Virus record (IMG/VR): IMGVR_UViG_3300037133_000036
Location: 1-20,247 of that record
Direction: 5' to 3' (one strand)
Length of the DNA: 20,247 nucleotides
DNA from: a virus
This document shows positions 3,548-15,631 of the stretch, one piece after another. Position 1 is the stretch's first letter. Each line of letters opens with the position of its first letter. Below the pieces are notes generated by a model. It searched no databases and was not told the origin of the DNA. It saw only the letters and a program-made list of their open reading frames with translations. A program made the translations under genes and the position numbers.

Positions 3548-4369
3548 TTAGTACTCGGTGAACTCGTGGGAAGTGGCCCGCGTCCCAGGAACGGTCTTAA
3601 CTGGGGCGATGGGGGCCGGAAGGGTTGGTTTCTTGACTGGCGTTTCGGCCCTGGGGCCCGGGGTGGGAGCAGGAGCGGTCAACTTGGCCTCGATCTTTCC
3701 AATTGCCTTGGCGGTCTGGAGGGGCGAAAGGCGGGCGATGCTGATTGCCTCGTCCTGGTGGGCCAACAGGTAGTGCCAGAGGTCCGCACCGGCACCGGCT
3801 TCCGAACCCCTGATCAGGCTTACGACCGTGGGATTCGCGGTGGGGATGCCCTGGGCGTCCAAAGCGTTGGCGGACTCGATCAGTTCGGGAAGTTCAGGGT
3901 GAGCAGCGATGATGGCTTTCTGCTTAGCCTGGAACTCCACAGCCTTGGTCCGCTGGTCTCGCTCCCAGAGTTTCAGATCGACCTTGTAATCGATCGGATC
4001 CTCATAGGCGGCGGGGTCAGGGGGCGCAGTCGAGTCCATGATCTGGGCCTGGGGCTGCGGGACGTTCTGCTTCTGCTGGGAAAGAGCGGCGACTTGGCCC
4101 TTGAGCCGTTCGCGTTCCTTGACGAGATCCGCGATGCGCTTCTCAGCGGCACGGCTCCGTTTGTGTTCATCCGCTTCCGGCGCGGCCTCCCCTTCCGGGG
4201 TTTCGGGAGTCTCGGCAGCGGCGAGCGCGGCATCTTCCGCCACTTCGGAGGCTTCGGCTTCCACGGGCACTGCTTCGGGTTCTGGGAGTGCTGGAGTCTC
4301 AGGGGTTTCGACTACCGGAGTAGCCGCAGCGGTCAAAAAGGCGTTAAAATCTTGCACGTCATCTGGCAT
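3548..4369 (-). CDS. Capsid scaffolding protein
   Basis: This 273-residue acidic protein begins MPDDVQDFNAFLTAA and has a long low-complexity stretch rich in E, A, P and T (about 17 to 70). A highly charged coiled-coil segment follows (KRSRAAEKRIADLVKERE near 70 to 90), then a Q-rich linker, then an alpha-helical C-terminal half. This plan (disordered acidic N-terminus, coiled coil, basic C-terminal end) and its place between portal and coat identify the internal scaffold that directs procapsid assembly, functionally like P22 gp8. TTGGAG lies six bases upstream of the ATG. Sequence conservation in scaffolds is weak, so position carries much of the call. Confidence 0.82.
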   Translation of the reverse strand: MPDDVQDFNAFLTAAATPVVETPETPALPEPEAVPVEAEASEVAEDAALAAAETPETPEGEAAPEADEHKRSRAAEKRIADLVKERERLKGQVAALSQQKQNVPQPQAQIMDSTAPPDPAAYEDPIDYKVDLKLWERDQRTKAVEFQAKQKAIIAAHPELPELIESANALDAQGIPTANPTVVSLIRGSEAGAGADLWHYLLAHQDEAISIARLSPLQTAKAIGKIEAKLTAPAPTPGPRAETPVKKPTLPAPIAPVKTVPGTRATSHEFTEY

Positions 4370-4419
4370 GGATCACTCCAAGGTGTATGGGCGGTGTTTA
4401 AAGGGTCACGGTCCCTATA

Positions 4420-4428
4420 TATATTATA
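4420..4428 (-). promoter_or_regulatory. Late promoter-like element TATAATATA (copy 2), upstream of scaffold and coat
   Basis: On the minus strand CTATAATATATAT is followed by AGGGACCGTGACCC. The copy upstream of the small terminase has the same CTATAATATATAT followed by GGGACTGTGACCC, so at least 25 positions are nearly shared. The element begins right after the portal stop codon and lies about 50 bases before the scaffold ATG. No -35 hexamer is seen at the usual distance. Confidence 0.65.
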
Positions 4429-4430
4429 GT

Positions 4431-6572
4431 TCAGGAATTCCCGGGTAGGATTGGCGCTATCTGATCTCCAGGTTCATTATATTCGGGAGGCTGCGCAGCC
4501 TGGGCGACGGCCGCCTTGTGGACCTCCATGTCCTTGCCCAGAACATGCTTCTGGATGTTGATGATTGCTTCGTGATGCTGCTGGTTGTGCAGCTTCAATT
4601 CCTCGACCTGGGCCTGGAGCAGGGTCTTATTGCTGTCGTGCTGCATCTGGGCCGCGCTGCGCCTGATTTCCGTGTCGTTGTCGAGTTGGGCAATCGCAAG
4701 CTTGGTCTTTTCGCTGGCCTGCACCTTGTCCGCAAGCTGGGTTTCGAGCTGGAGCTGCTGGGTGAGTTTCTGGCACATGGCCTGATACTGGGCAAGCTGC
4801 TGCTGGAGGGCCTGCGGGTCGGGGCCCTTCTTCGGGGGCTGGAGGTTGGCTGGCAATGCCTTCTCAAGTCGTTCAGCAAGAGGCTTGGAAATCGGGGAGT
4901 CCAGAAGCGATGCGAGGATGTCCCCGGCGAGGCCCATGAGTTGGGGGTCCTTCGACGCGAGCTGGAACAGGATGTCCCGCTCCTGCTCGCGCTGCGTCTG
5001 GTAGCTCGGGCCAGATTCCACGACCAGACCGTATTCACCAGTCGTCAGGTCGTAGATTTTCTTGATGCCTTCTTCGTTGGCCTCGTTGATCTCGTCCTCG
5101 GCGCCGGTCCCGTTGATGGTGACCAGGCTATTTTTCTTGTCGATGGACATGATCGCCATGACCTGCTTCTCTTTCAGCACCTTGGGGATCAGGTCCACAA
5201 TCTGCCTGGAGCTGGCACGGATGGCCCTGGTCAGGTTGTCGCTGAAATGGTAATTGGCGATGCTACCGGCCTTCTGGATGGCCTTGATGGCCAGGCCAGA
5301 CTGGTCGTTGGCCATCTTGTTGCCCATGGTGGGGTCAAACATCGAGTTGGTAGCCTTGATGTCATTCTCGATGCTGTTTGATACCTCCAACATGCCTTGA
5401 ATAGGCGCTTCCTGGATGTTCCGGGTTGGCGCAGCCAGGGGGTTATTCAGGTCATCGTAGGATTCATAGGTCAAATATGCCTTATTGGTCATATTGGCCT
5501 CCGCCCAATCGTCCTTCATGTCCCCGACGAACCCGGCCGGCCCGATCCAGGGGGTCTTGGGCGCCGCTGCGATCATTTCGATGATGCTGGTCTTCACCAC
5601 GTTGAGCATCATCTGCTCTTCCTTACTGTTCCGGACCAGACCAGCATAGATGCGCTGGCCGGAAACCATCAGAGGATCCCCGAACACTGGTATAATGGGG
5701 ATGCTGGAGCCCACCCATTCGGTTTCCTCCAGTATCTCGATGCCATTGATCTTATACCACTTGATTTTGGGCACGACACAGGACCGTTCGTCGTCAACAT
5801 ACTGCACTTCGCCCGCGTCCAGTTCGTCCTTATACTTCACTTCTCCGGTATGGCTCAGGTGGACTAGCTTCCGGGTCTCGTATTCCTTGACGAAGTATTC
5901 CGCCACGACACAGGCCCGCTTTTCGGTGTCGAACCAATCAGGCAGGCGGTTGTTGAGCCCAAGCCAGCCCTGGTAATCCCGGCCAGCCATCTCCGAGTCT
6001 TTATACTCGCGCTTATACTGGTCTTCGGTAACATAGTTGATGATGAAGGCATACTCGATATCGGACCCGTCCAGCGCCTTATACGTGGGATCGATGAACA
6101 CCTGGAACGGATTGTTGATCGAGTCGATACGGATTCTCTGGTTGAATGACTTCTCTTTGTATTCGGTCAGAATGCGCCAGAAGCCTATGCCAGAGCGGAC
6201 AGCCCACTCGAACGCCTCATCATAGGCCATATCCGCGCTCGACTCGTTCTCGATCTGGCGGACGATGCCTTCCATGACGTTCGCGGTGTCCTCGTTTGCC
6301 GCGTTGTTCGTGGGGTGAATTGAGGCCGCAGGGCGGTTCTCGCGTTGGGCGTTGGTAAGCTGCTTGACTTGTGCGTTGAGTCGATCAGCCGCAAGTGTCG
6401 GCCTCCCCAACCGCTGGTCTCGCACGCCCTGGGGCCATTGGTTATCGGGAGAACAGAAGTCAACGTCAGCCTGGCTGAGTTGATACTGCTTCTCCCATGC
6501 TTTCTTGGCTGCGCGGAAACGTTCTTGGGTTTCGTCCATAAAGGACCTGGACTCAGATTCGCCTTCCGCCAT
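4431..6572 (-). CDS. Portal protein, P22 gp1-like
   Basis: This 713-residue protein has a length typical of P22-type portals (P22 gp1 is about 725). The N-terminal part is characteristic: a region with DFCSPDNQWP (about 38-47), then RPTLAADRLNAQVKQLTNAQ and RENRPAASIHP, then a stretch ending in FEWAVRSGIGFWRI. The middle carries the wing and stem regions. The last 110 residues are Q-rich and strongly helical (PQALQQQLAQYQAM onward), matching the C-terminal helical barrel that extends into the head in P22. The dodecameric portal forms the DNA channel and the terminase docking site. The start is preceded by AGAGGTAGATCAAT. Its own promoter-like element lies 16 bases upstream. Confidence 0.88.
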   Translation of the reverse strand: MAEGESESRSFMDETQERFRAAKKAWEKQYQLSQADVDFCSPDNQWPQGVRDQRLGRPTLAADRLNAQVKQLTNAQRENRPAASIHPTNNAANEDTANVMEGIVRQIENESSADMAYDEAFEWAVRSGIGFWRILTEYKEKSFNQRIRIDSINNPFQVFIDPTYKALDGSDIEYAFIINYVTEDQYKREYKDSEMAGRDYQGWLGLNNRLPDWFDTEKRACVVAEYFVKEYETRKLVHLSHTGEVKYKDELDAGEVQYVDDERSCVVPKIKWYKINGIEILEETEWVGSSIPIIPVFGDPLMVSGQRIYAGLVRNSKEEQMMLNVVKTSIIEMIAAAPKTPWIGPAGFVGDMKDDWAEANMTNKAYLTYESYDDLNNPLAAPTRNIQEAPIQGMLEVSNSIENDIKATNSMFDPTMGNKMANDQSGLAIKAIQKAGSIANYHFSDNLTRAIRASSRQIVDLIPKVLKEKQVMAIMSIDKKNSLVTINGTGAEDEINEANEEGIKKIYDLTTGEYGLVVESGPSYQTQREQERDILFQLASKDPQLMGLAGDILASLLDSPISKPLAERLEKALPANLQPPKKGPDPQALQQQLAQYQAMCQKLTQQLQLETQLADKVQASEKTKLAIAQLDNDTEIRRSAAQMQHDSNKTLLQAQVEELKLHNQQHHEAIINIQKHVLGKDMEVHKAAVAQAAQPPEYNEPGDQIAPILPGNS

Positions 6573-6612: not shown

Positions 6613-6641
6613 TTGACACGGTATGCGGACTGACCGATGAT
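6613..6641 (+). promoter_or_regulatory. Sigma70-type promoter for the rightward moron
   Basis: A perfect TTGACA (6613 to 6618), a 17-base spacer and GATGAT (6636 to 6641, four of six matches to TATAAT) point rightward. Transcription would start near 6648, a few bases before the first stem of the structured leader. Unlike the late elements it has a full -35, so the host polymerase could use it without phage help. Confidence 0.55.
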
Positions 6642-6653
6642 TGCCTCGTTGGA

Positions 6654-6748
6654 GTTGAGCCCAACCTTATCCCTCACATCTCGCCATCCTGCCTATCCGT
6701 CCAGTTTGCCCATTCATTGGGGCTCAACCAAACAGGAGATAGGCAGGA
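6654..6748 (+). ncRNA. Pseudoknotted 5' leader RNA, copy 1 (candidate cis-regulatory element)
   Basis: Two perfect inverted repeats cross each other. Stem A is GTTGAGCCC (6654-6662) with GGGCTCAAC (6720-6728). Stem B is TCCTGCCTATC (6687-6697) with GATAGGCAGGA (6738-6748). The order A, B, A', B' is that of an H-type pseudoknot or of two mutually exclusive folds. A small hairpin CCCA/TGGG (6709-6712, 6718-6721) abuts A'. The element lies just after the predicted transcription start and ends 15 bases before the GTG of the next gene, beside its ribosome site. A second copy with different stem sequences but the same plan is at 14453-14550 on the other strand. Function and ligand unknown. Confidence 0.75.
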
Positions 6749-6763
6749 CCTTTGGAGTCCACC

Positions 6764-7102
6764 GTGGACATCGATACCCTCACCATCAAGGAAGCGCGTC
6801 AGATCGCCAATCTATTCGCTATTGAAAAGACAGTGGCAGCGCTCCACGTCCCGTTCGAGGTCGGCAAGGCTTACCTCATCCGCACCGTGACCATGGCGTG
6901 GACCGGCCGCGTGACCGCCATTTACCCCGAATTCCTCACCATGGAAGACGGCGCCTGGATCGCTGATACCGGCCGCTATCATGAGGCCATCGCGCAAGGC
7001 GTGTTCAGCGAGGTCGAGCCGGCCGGCAATGTCATCATCGGCATCGGGTCCATCGTGGACGCCATCGAATGGAAGCACGATCTCCCGATGAAGGTTAAGT
7101 GA
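6764..7102 (+). CDS. Moron protein of unknown function (KEAR...AWIADTGR family)
   Basis: This gene lies on the strand opposite to the late genes that flank it. I choose GTG 6764 because GGAG lies six bases upstream; an in-frame TTG at 6752 has no proper ribosome site. The 112-residue protein begins MDIDTLTIKEARQIANLF and has a central YLIRTVTMAWTGRVTAIYP segment, then AWIADTGRYHEAIAQG, VEPAGNVIIGIGSIVDA and a terminal WKHDLPMK. I recall this pattern from small proteins in other phages and prophages, often followed by a gene made of dipeptide-like repeats, as here. It has no signal peptide or membrane segment. Its stop overlaps the next ATG by one base. Function unknown. Confidence 0.72.
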   Translation: MDIDTLTIKEARQIANLFAIEKTVAALHVPFEVGKAYLIRTVTMAWTGRVTAIYPEFLTMEDGAWIADTGRYHEAIAQGVFSEVEPAGNVIIGIGSIVDAIEWKHDLPMKVK

Positions 7103-7302
7103 TGAACGCCGCCATTGGAAGAACCGGGTATGTAATGTCGCGGTCGCGGTCGTGGTCGGGGTCGGGGTCGGGGTCGTGGTCGCGGTCGCGGTCGCGGTCG
7201 CGGTCGTGGTCGTGGTCGTGGTCGTGGTCGCGGTCGCGGTCGGGGTCGCGGTCGTGGTCGGGGTCGTGGTCGGGGTCGGGGTCGCGGTCGCGGTCGCTCT
7301 AA
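7102..7302 (+). CDS. Ultra-low-complexity (RS/WS/GS)n protein
   Basis: ATG 7102 shares a base with the stop of the upstream gene (TGATG), which argues that it is translated. After a short unique start (MNAAIGRTGYVMS) nearly every second residue is serine, alternating with R, W or G, up to a final L. There is no known fold for such a sequence and it is probably disordered. The 66-residue product could be a peptide with its own role, or the repeats may matter as DNA or RNA. The ORF stops 21 bases before the terminator that ends this unit. Confidence 0.5.
   Translation: MNAAIGRTGYVMSRSRSWSGSGSGSWSRSRSRSRSWSWSWSWSRSRSGSRSWSGSWSGSGSRSRSL
7138..7296 (+). repeat. Hexanucleotide tandem array (HGG TCG, H or G in first place)
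   Basis: About 26 units of six bases read tcg followed by cgg, tgg or ggg. Only the first base of the second codon varies. The array is in frame with the 7102 ORF and keeps all three plus frames and one minus frame open. Such an array is prone to slippage, in units that preserve the frame. Confidence 0.95.
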
Positions 7303-7323
7303 GCAAAAACAGGGAATACAAGG

Positions 7324-7346
7324 TGCCCCATTCGTGGGGCATTTTT
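7324..7346 (+). terminator. Rho-independent terminator of the rightward moron
   Basis: TGCCCCA (7324-7330), loop TTCG, TGGGGCA (7335-7341) and five T form a textbook terminator pointing right. The stop codon of the large terminase on the other strand (TAA, 7347 to 7345) lies inside the T run. In the leftward direction the hairpin is not followed by a T run. Confidence 0.88.
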
Positions 7347-8679
7347 ATGTCATCCATGCGTTTGGGCTGGACCGGCGCGGCCTATCGTCGGCAGGTTTCT
7401 TGGGTGCCTTGGTTAGCGCGGGGAAAAGCTCGGTAAGCAACCATACCAAAGCATCCGCCCGGTTGGGCGATCCCTGGCCTAGATACCCATTGGTGGTGAA
7501 TCCGGCCAGTTCTTCTTCCATCTCTGGGAAATACCCTACGTGCGACACCTTCCCGCTCTCATAGAGGGCGCTGATTGGCTCGGCCCGCACTACCTTGCCA
7601 CGGCTCGCGCTCACAGCCTTGTAGTGCGTTCTGGGCCGCGCCGTCTGAATAGTAAATCGGACCATCTCCCCGCCGAAATTGGACTCACCGATGATAGCGT
7701 CGGCTTCATGGCGGTCGAAGGCGCTGGTGGCCACCTTTCCCCACGTCGCCGGCCCGGCTTTGACGGTCAGATCCTCCAGAATGTAGGCCCGGCCATCCGT
7801 CCCCAGGCCGCCCACCATGATACCGATGGCGTCGTTATCCGCATTGTCGGTATCACCGGCTCCACTTGGGTCCACGGCGACAAGCACACGCACCAAGTCA
7901 GGGATCTCGCTGCCTGTGACGCGCCATTTGTCGATGTCCGTCTCATTAAACAAGGAATTCGGGTTTTCGTCAGACCATTCCCCCCGAAGGAACCTTTTCT
8001 GTTGTCTCGCGCCGAGACCATTCAAAGTCTTGATGTAGGTATCGGAAAGATTCACCAGGTTATCCGCTGGGTTCATCTGGAAATAGGCGTAATCATCCGG
8101 TGATTCCAGTTTTACTTTGGTATCAGGGTCTAGGTGCTGGTGGAACATCTTATAGCCCCAGTGACCCTTGCCTGTGGGGTTCAGATCGTAATACATCCGA
8201 ACAGGCATCGGGCGCTTTACACCGTCGATCTCCTGATCCACCTTCTGGGCTAGGCGCGTCACAGCCATGTTCCGCGACTCGAAAGGTATCTGGCTGATCT
8301 CATTGAGGTAAATGGTCACAAACTCCCGCCCGAGGATCTTCTCAACCCGGGCCTTGTCATCCAGGCCACCGAACCATATCTCTGAGCCATTGGGCAGCAG
8401 AGCCATCCAGTCCGTCTTGTTCAGGTCGTAGGGCACATCCGGGAAGCACGTGGCCATGACCTTCGGAAACGTGTCCTGGATGATGCTAGCCTTCACATGG
8501 CTGAACCGGAACCGCAGGATGCAGTGCCGGCTGTTCTTGGCCTTGAGCGCCCGCATAACCACGGCACGGACCAGAAGGTAGGTTTTGCCAGAGCGCGATC
8601 CGCCCTCAAGCATGATATGGGTGGCATTGCTCGCGAGGACCTTCTGCTGCGCCGTGGTCTGGGCCGGAGTGAGGCTCAC
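7345..8679 (-). CDS. Terminase large subunit
   Basis: This 444-residue packaging motor has both expected halves. The ATPase has a Walker A at residues 26-33 (GGSRSGKT) and a Walker B ending in acidic residues at about 121-127 (VTIYLNE). The C-terminal RNase H-like nuclease has the acidic residues D270 (in VAVDPSGAG), E332 (in GESNFGG) and D409 (in NRADALVW). It cuts concatemeric DNA and drives it through the portal. The start is GTG at 8679, overlapping the small-subunit stop as GTGA, with AGAGGA upstream. Family: Terminase_6-type. The head genes suggest headful packaging, but cleavage style cannot be read here. Confidence 0.92.
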   Translation of the reverse strand: MSLTPAQTTAQQKVLASNATHIMLEGGSRSGKTYLLVRAVVMRALKAKNSRHCILRFRFSHVKASIIQDTFPKVMATCFPDVPYDLNKTDWMALLPNGSEIWFGGLDDKARVEKILGREFVTIYLNEISQIPFESRNMAVTRLAQKVDQEIDGVKRPMPVRMYYDLNPTGKGHWGYKMFHQHLDPDTKVKLESPDDYAYFQMNPADNLVNLSDTYIKTLNGLGARQQKRFLRGEWSDENPNSLFNETDIDKWRVTGSEIPDLVRVLVAVDPSGAGDTDNADNDAIGIMVGGLGTDGRAYILEDLTVKAGPATWGKVATSAFDRHEADAIIGESNFGGEMVRFTIQTARPRTHYKAVSASRGKVVRAEPISALYESGKVSHVGYFPEMEEELAGFTTNGYLGQGSPNRADALVWLLTELFPALTKAPKKPADDRPRRSSPNAWMT

Positions 8680-14570: not shown

Positions 14571-14765
14571 CTATGCCGGTTTGGCGTCAAGCACTTGCTG
14601 GGGTTCGCCGGCCAACCTGGACGCGCTTTGCAGCTTTGACTTTGCCGCCAAAAGGTCTGTGACGGCGCGGTTTACCAGTGCCCTGGCGGTTCCGTCTGGG
14701 ACTTCGAGCGCGGACGCCTGAACGGTGATCTGGGCCACGATGAGGGACGCTTCCCGACAGTTCAT
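14571..14765 (-). CDS. Small helical protein of unknown function
   Basis: This 64-residue protein (MNCREASLIVAQITVQASAL onward) is predicted to be nearly all helix, with LVNRAVTDLLAAKSKLQSA, and ends in AKPA. Its start overlaps the upstream stop as ATGA, and its TAG stop is followed at once by promoter-like copy 5. No function recognised. Confidence 0.6.
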   Translation of the reverse strand: MNCREASLIVAQITVQASALEVPDGTARALVNRAVTDLLAAKSKLQSASRLAGEPQQVLDAKPA

Positions 14766-15631
14766 GATTTTGCCTTAAACCGGCCCTTGGCGTCTCGAAT
14801 TGGAACATCCTTGGTGCCGAATTTCGCCTTGAGCCAGTCCGCGCACAGCGCCAGGATAAGCCCATATTCAGAGATTTGATCCGCAGTATATCTCTGGACT
14901 TTCCCTATAGACTGGAAGTGCATTTGCCATTGGGAGACCGAGTGGCACTGGCATCCGATCTGGATATGCGTGTGGCTACACGTGGTAACGCCGTGGCGGG
15001 TTCCCTGGATGTAGAGAGGGGAGAACTCCCAGGCATCGCCGGAGACCCTGGCATTGCCGGAGACCTGGGCATCGCCGGAGACCCGGGCATTGCCGAAGAC
15101 CCGGGTATCGCCGAAGACCCGGGCATCACCGTAGACCCTGGCATTGCCGAAGACCCGGGCATTGCCGTAGACCTGGGCATTGCCGGAGACCTGGGCATCG
15201 CCGGAGACCTGGGCATTGCCGGAGACCTGGGCATCGCCGGAGACCCGGGCATTGCCGAAGACCCGGGTATCGCCGAAGACCCGGGCATCACCGTAGACCC
15301 TGGCATTGCCGAAGACCCGGGCATTGCCGTAGACCTGGGCATTGCCGGAGACCTGGGCATCGCCGAAGACCTGGGCATTGCCGAAGACCCGGGCATTGCC
15401 GTAGACCCGGGCATTGCCGGAGACCTGGGCATCGCCGAAGACCTGGGCATTGCCGAAGACCCGGGCATTGCCGTAGACCCGGGCATTGCCGGAGACCATC
15501 CCCTCGACAGTCACGGACGCATCCACATGTGCCGTATCCTGGACCCATCCTCCCCCTTTGATGTGCTGGTGCCACTCCCCACGGACCAAGGGGCCGAGTT
15601 TGGCCTGCAATTCTTTGAATGTGATGCTCAT
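14762..15631 (-). CDS. Hexapeptide-repeat left-handed beta-helix protein (YdcK-like)
   Basis: This 289-residue protein has an N-terminal part (MSITFKELQAKLGPL, GGGWVQDTAHVDASVTVEG), 26 near-perfect hexapeptides of the form [SYF]-G-[ND]-[AT]-[RQ]-V, and a C-terminal domain (CSHTHIQIGCQCHSVSQW, then DQISEYGLILALCADWLKAK). The repeats fit the rule for left-handed parallel beta-helices (aliphatic, two spacers, small residue). E. coli YdcK has a similar plan with GNARVYGNA-type repeats and a C-terminal cap. At three hexapeptides per turn this gives eight to nine turns. It shows no acyltransferase active site that I can recognise. In phages such proteins are known but their role is not. Overlaps RusA by ATGA. 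Confidence 0.82.
   Translation of the reverse strand: MSITFKELQAKLGPLVRGEWHQHIKGGGWVQDTAHVDASVTVEGMVSGNARVYGNARVFGNAQVFGDAQVSGNARVYGNARVFGNAQVFGDAQVSGNAQVYGNARVFGNARVYGDARVFGDTRVFGNARVSGDAQVSGNAQVSGDAQVSGNAQVYGNARVFGNARVYGDARVFGDTRVFGNARVSGDAQVSGNARVSGDAWEFSPLYIQGTRHGVTTCSHTHIQIGCQCHSVSQWQMHFQSIGKVQRYTADQISEYGLILALCADWLKAKFGTKDVPIRDAKGRFKAKS
15030..15497 (-). repeat. 18-bp tandem repeats with 162-bp and 72-bp higher-order duplications
   Basis: Twenty-six 18-base units encode the hexapeptides. A nine-unit block (162 bp) is repeated almost exactly: the sequence starting at 15079 returns at 15241. At the coding 5' side a four-unit block (72 bp) is also doubled. The near identity at silent positions means recent expansion by unequal recombination or slippage. 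Confidence 0.93.

Follow-up and report, generated by a model that had tools for sequence, protein, structure and literature searches.

A two-gene phage module pairs a predicted Sm/LSm-fold protein with a hypervariable serine-X coding array

Within the Sm/LSm/Hfq superfamily, which includes archaeal SmAP and the eukaryotic Sm and LSm proteins, SmB, SmD1 and SmD3 carry Arg-Gly tails and LSm proteins carry low-complexity tails. We analyzed a phage locus in which a small protein predicted to form the strongly bent beta barrel of this superfamily (gene 1) is encoded next to a basic low-complexity polymer (gene 2). Like the tails, the polymer is tied to an Sm-fold protein, but it is the product of a separate, hypervariable gene and alternates Ser with Arg, Gly or Trp, rather than Arg with Gly. 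Gene 1 further departs from the known superfamily in being phage-borne beside a separate repeat gene, in being mostly acidic, and in having no significant sequence match in Pfam, NCBIfam or the PDB. Another small Sm-like protein is Rof (YaeO), for which we know of no repeat partner. Rof, encoded by a host gene in Pseudomonadota, inhibits the transcription terminator Rho (PMC11018626), whereas gene 1 is without a profile match. VIPR loci (PMC13142463, a 2026 preprint) are minimal phage loci that combine a RAMP/RRM protein with non-coding YNNGG pentamers. They share with our locus a protein, a short hypervariable tandem array containing GG, and a phage setting, but gene 1 models as an Sm fold and not as a RAMP protein (RRM core), and the array described here has a period of six and is coding. 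Diversity-generating retroelements likewise have hypervariable codons in a phage gene; here, in contrast, variation falls in tandem units at one codon position, and no reverse transcriptase was found among the ORFs scanned in the partial contig. Full-text searching, to which supplements and subscription papers are closed, returned no description of the module, and VIPR alone was conceptually close. The module is unannotated, and gene 1 represents a new family.

The window, the whole stretch of DNA analyzed, is the 20,247-base IMG/VR virus record IMGVR_UViG_3300037133_000036. Scanning its ORFs identified a P22-like portal, scaffold, coat protein and large terminase (TerL), as well as a DnaB-like helicase, a replication initiator, RusA, RecT and a DNA methyltransferase; no recognised integrase was among them. 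Gene 1 and gene 2 lie on the strand opposite to the flanking portal and TerL (Table 1), as a preliminary description of this DNA had it. The TGA stop codon of gene 1 (7100-7102) overlaps the gene 2 ATG as TGATG. A longer gene 1 frame is open from a TTG at 6752, but the GTG is the more likely start because a GGAG stands six bases upstream of it and homologues begin MxIDxLT. In the window array, N is C, G or T, and the final unit is TCG CTC. The same phage has a second coding repeat, a gene for a beta-solenoid protein with YdcK-type repeats (14762-15631, minus strand) that contains ~26 copies of an 18-nt unit.

Table 1. Positions of the module and its flanking genes in the window.
Feature	Position	Strand	Remarks
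Portal	4431-6572	-	PHROG/Pfam P22-like portal
Promoter-like site TTGACA-17-GATGAT	6613..6641	+	10/12 consensus match, weak evidence
Leader hairpin CCUGCCUAUC...GAUAGGCAGG, 62 nt	6687..6748	+	Directly upstream of likely gene 1 SD
Gene 1, 112 aa, predicted Sm/LSm fold, acidic (domain net charge -4)	6764..7102	+	AF2, PDB matches; favoured start GTG 6764
Gene 2, 66 aa, MNAAIGRTGYVM + (Ser-[Arg/Gly/Trp])n, net charge about +12	7102..7302	+	
Hexamer array TCGNGG, hypervariable, 27 units	7138..7299	+	26.8 copies, period 6
Intrinsic terminator	7324..7346	+	TGCCCC-ATTCGT-GGGGCA (7324-7341), then TTTTT (7342-7346)
TerL (large terminase)	7345-8679	-	Stop codon at 7345-7347

The gene 1 family is absent from Pfam, PHROGs, NCBIfam and PADLOC, in which weak matches were confined to one to three members. 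None of 57 gene 1 members matched the LSM, Hfq or Rof families of Pfam at E <= 1, a search that can miss very divergent families, and a PDB sequence search with gene 1 found no match. The members fall into two groups, subfamily A ('RTVT...LEDAAWIADTGRF') and subfamily B ('NYIYTGKLVGVN...YETG'). AF2 models had a pLDDT of 91.4 for the window gene 1 with 44 relatives and of 91.2 for the divergent subfamily B. The model consists of a short N-terminal helix and a strongly bent five-stranded barrel, the arrangement that defines an Sm fold. For both models, essentially all of the 50 best-aligned PDB entries were Sm/LSm proteins, with best Z scores of 9.7 (window) and 10.7 (subfamily B) and an rmsd of 2.3 over about 70 residues. 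We therefore assign gene 1 to the predicted Sm/LSm fold with high confidence, its kinship to Sm proteins resting on the predicted structure, and we regard this fold together with the anatomy of the module as close to certain. Of the members, 82% carry a net negative charge (pI 5.2), an uncommon property among RNA-binding Sm proteins. Matches to the gene 1 fold in BFVD included other phage proteins, among them DUF6948 and a Gordonia phage 'RNA binding protein'; Sm-like proteins of phages may be more widespread.

The preliminary description had placed the first protein in a family that occurs in several phages next to a repeat protein, and this association proved far stronger than claimed. Searching IMG/VR with gene 1 alone returned three relatives, each followed by a hexamer-repeat gene, as was the relative MW202573 from GenBank phages. 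With the DNA hexamer as the sole query, at least 120 stretches were recovered, and an iterative profile search located gene 1 in 86 array loci, where its end nearly always lay 20-60 bases upstream. Where arrays found by DNA pattern alone had enough flank, gene 1 adjoined 81 of 92. A profile search of IMG/VR with gene 1, made with one pattern, led to 346 confirmed loci. Since a set of 170 gene 1 matches mixes the two search directions, the loci fetched via gene 1 alone give the fair numbers for linkage. In these 80 loci, a Ser-X tract (detected as Ser at alternate codons, with tract-less loci read by eye in all three frames) lay downstream of gene 1 in 75, upstream in two (L141, L151), was vestigial in one (L142) and was lacking in two that form a near-identical pair (L146, L182). 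No other kind of hexamer array occurred in the 80 loci.

Other arrangements of the two genes were seen. The order is reversed, with the Ser-X gene upstream, in L030, L048, L079, L089 and L115 as well as in L141 and L151. Several phages have two to four Ser-X genes with a single gene 1, and a few Ser-X genes are preceded by another gene instead of gene 1 (e.g. L013, L084). Serial Ser-X genes, or tandem copies of the whole gene 1 and Ser-X unit with differing arrays, are found in L012, L015, L043, L085, L155, L156 and L157. In L073 (5946-6717) and L125/L225, the Ser-X tract is joined, without a change of frame, to a C-terminal domain that bears weak similarity to gene 1, possibly a single-gene version of the module. 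The fused domain resembles gene 1 marginally, and in L125 a GTG preceded by an SD of its own provides an internal start; with this proviso, the in-frame fusions of L073 and L125 appear to support a partnership of gene 1 and Ser-X.

Gene 2 has the general form (Ser-X)n, with X being Arg, Gly or Trp, encoded by hexamers such as TCG-NGG. Its start overlaps the gene 1 stop as ATGA in 64 and as TGATG in 16 of 144 cases (together 80/144), and its N-terminus is conserved (MNxAILRxGFD). Serine is encoded by TCG in 125 arrays, AGC in 19, TCT in 7, TCA in 5 and AGT in 2; the codon is 98% uniform within a single array and varies between phages while serine stays. From these features, gene 2 reads as a genuine protein gene that is usually translationally coupled to gene 1. 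Two other coding schemes were rejected. An Arg-Gly repeat reached by frameshifting into the +1 frame (CGN-GGT, with N as the wobble base) would be lost in AGC, TCT and TCA arrays, which keep Ser-X. Coding on the reverse strand, where Pro-Arg would also fit the wobble argument, disagrees with the start codon, the overlap and the N-terminus, all of which are on the plus strand.

The composition of the polymer is also constrained. About 94% of units have Arg, Gly or Trp as X, in an R:G:W ratio near 37:32:31, and the codons of X are almost exclusively NGG. Glycine is encoded by GGG in 97% of cases in arrays vs 23% in gene 1. N uses three bases per array, and in 93 of 100 arrays Arg is either CGG or AGG, never both. 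G-to-A changes that yield Glu are rare (GAG/GGG 12/1006) compared with those that yield Gln (CAG/CGG 47/764, p = 2.7e-8) or Lys (27/410, p = 3.5e-7); the counts pool related arrays, which makes these p-values approximate. Glu is depleted 5-fold, no array of at least 15 units falls under 10% Arg, and the median net charge of gene 2 is +11. Because the same change gives Gln and Lys more often, the rarity of Glu indicates that negative charge is selected against, and together with the stable R:G:W ratio it argues that composition is selected. We conclude that selection on gene 2 preserves serine and positive charge and holds R:G:W in balance. In our reading, the constant GG of the X codon is a by-product of the single Trp codon and of rapid unit turnover that homogenises all but N; some further constraint on the RNA may add to this.

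The order of units, in contrast to their composition, is reshuffled very rapidly as the hexamer array turns over. Outside the array, the units of the window and L002 are 95.7% identical, whereas their arrays score like shuffled strings; the L002 and L003 arrays both differ from that of the window despite an identity of about 96% in the flanks. In L155, two units stand in tandem whose gene 1 copies are identical but whose arrays are not. Identical neighbouring units are rarer than in permuted arrays (870 observed vs 947.5 +/- 23), and simulated neutral unit duplication gave 87% identical neighbours. Contigs end within 400 nt of gene 1 on the downstream side in 15 of 80 loci and on the upstream side in one, and in that one the array itself is upstream. 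The array thus seems to break assemblies, which would leave the module probably under-reported, repeats in IMG/VR assemblies being liable to collapse or breakage. The pattern suggests array variation within populations, to which read-length limits on repeats could contribute.

The unit had been proposed to be a self-contained moron, with its own promoter, structured leader and terminator. The terminator has a good hairpin and T-run, its site is conserved in L002 and L003, and a region scan found a mirror stem there; its T-run indeed overlaps the TerL stop codon. The leader is also structured as described: the fragment with the hairpin folds at -44.5 kcal/mol (z = -2.15, with 5 of 200 shuffles equally stable). 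Among three relatives, 2 of 123 leader columns vary vs 16 of 247 in gene 1 (Fisher p = 0.04), and the window unit has no Rfam RNA family at the gathering threshold; the hairpin is possibly an autoregulatory RNA. The sigma-70 promoter, however, did not clearly rise above chance in a scan for the sigma-70 consensus, with 3 promoter-like sites in the region vs 1.0 +/- 1.0 expected in shuffles. The TTGACA-17-GATGAT motif itself is retained in L002 and L003.

Comparison of related phages confirmed that the unit comes and goes at this site. It is present in the window, L002 and L003, and absent from L235 and L234, whose TerL is 96% and 68% identical, respectively; its absence beside a 96%-identical terminase indicates that the unit is insertable. 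L002 has the same portal and unit with a TerL of a different family (3891-5198 vs 7345-8679 in the window), which places a recombination joint at the 3' end of the unit. Neighbouring genes hardly recur (the largest cluster is 4 among 142 units), so the unit has no fixed genomic neighbours. Opposite orientation is no rule, as both neighbours share the strand of the unit in 43 of the 87 units with both called. The moron description holds for insertion and for the terminator, with the promoter at chance level. Common in IMG/VR and rare in bacterial genomes, the gene 1 family is not distributed like a typical prophage moron; this and the window ORFs scanned, which include no recognised integrase, lend no support to the suggestion that the unit is expressed from the prophage and alters the host. 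We found 14 loci among 84,980 species genomes of bacteria and archaea, all in MAGs and nearly all on short contigs; plasmids had no match to gene 1, and by tblastn 2 of 50,697 GenBank phage records carry it, both metagenome-derived. Planctomycetota were considered and dismissed as the typical host, since 1 of 392 of their genomes has the family, namely the genome on which the search was centred. The copy most likely to be integrated or carried by a mobile element is that of L219, where the unit sits on an Isosphaeraceae MAG contig of 649 kb with an ArdC anti-restriction gene nearby.

Taken together, the best overall explanation, mechanism included, is that the window unit represents a two-gene phage module that is widespread and insertable, a view we hold tentatively and with somewhat less than even confidence. 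RNA-granule proteins with FUS-like domains follow a grammar in which Arg and aromatic stickers recur at even intervals among Ser and Gly spacers. In the acidic Sm-like protein and the Ser-X polymer, we envisage a ring that would bind the basic polymer as a detachable disordered tail. The evenly spaced Arg and Trp of the tail would act as stickers and its Ser and Gly as spacers, binding RNA multivalently, which would explain why composition matters and order does not. Cation-pi interactions operate in FUS phase separation (PMC5927716). Ring and tail together would form an RNA-protein complex or condensate inside infected cells, which could protect, store or silence transcripts. This is the leading specific mechanism, possible rather than probable. 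The opposition of charges, gene 1 acidic and gene 2 strongly basic, supports a partnership, whereas the occurrence of several Ser-X genes per gene 1, of Ser-X genes without gene 1, and of an acidic gene 1, unlike most RNA-binding Sm proteins, counts against this mechanism.

A toxin with its neutraliser is a rival reading. Ser-X would be a membrane- or nucleic-acid-active toxin, rich in Trp and Arg, as in cationic antimicrobial peptides, and aimed at the host or at competing phages; the acidic Sm-like protein would be produced immediately beforehand and would keep it harmless. A small mobile cassette of overlapping genes that recurs in unrelated gene contexts, with opposite charges and selection on composition rather than order, would suit such a pair. 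However, one gene 1 can accompany several Ser-X genes, Ser-X sometimes comes first and a few copies lack gene 1, and no confident PADLOC family match was obtained; we consider a toxin pair unlikely. Phages often need anti-termination, and gene 1, a small protein of the same fold class as Rof, might inhibit host machinery as Rof acts on Rho, with Ser-X as an accessory tether. We find this quite improbable: gene 1 has no Pfam Rof match at E <= 1, Rof is restricted to Pseudomonadota (PMC11018626), and the Ser-X array would be left unexplained.

The array could instead act as RNA, its GG every six bases forming a multivalent site for the Sm-like ring and N perhaps carrying information, as VIPR guide RNAs do (PMC13142463). 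GG is kept beyond the need of the protein, as in the glycine codons, N is hypervariable, and the locus is phage-borne and in two parts. Against this, serine persists through codons that change the RNA, Glu is depleted, and N is limited to three bases per array, with CGG or AGG but not both. N strings compared as guides with 1.9 Mb of collected loci showed no enrichment over shuffles at skips 0-4. At skip 5, 0.85 was reached by 9 of 100 observed vs 16 of 400 shuffled strings within a small target space, an excess that we suspect comes from leftover arrays escaping masking. Action as RNA in place of protein is thus an improbable reading. It is very improbable that the array is read at both levels, the RNA being bound by the Sm-like ring and its translation giving the Ser-X polymer; with its GG period and hypervariable N, the RNA would then be multivalent or carry information, a case of convergence with VIPR guides. 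Finally, a neutral or selfish microsatellite that is open in one frame by chance would account for the period-6 array, its rapid turnover and the uniform Ser codon of each array, but it is barely credible when partner, start site and N-terminus are conserved, serine is kept via codons two changes apart, Glu is depleted, and identical neighbours fall below the permuted number instead of approaching that of neutral duplication.

Whichever mechanism applies, hundreds of unrelated uncultured phages share a linked gene pair that has no Pfam, PHROGs or NCBIfam family. Tight linkage, independence of context, and selection on composition and not on order argue for a real shared function. The near absence of the module from GenBank phages would explain why it has been missed so far. 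If the array were read at both levels, a fast-evolving phage element would set what its Sm particle binds. Gene 1 would make a large phage family of Sm-like proteins, and gene 2 offers a natural experiment on the evolution of disordered proteins, in which a single base per hexamer decides whether the residue is positive, flexible or aromatic.
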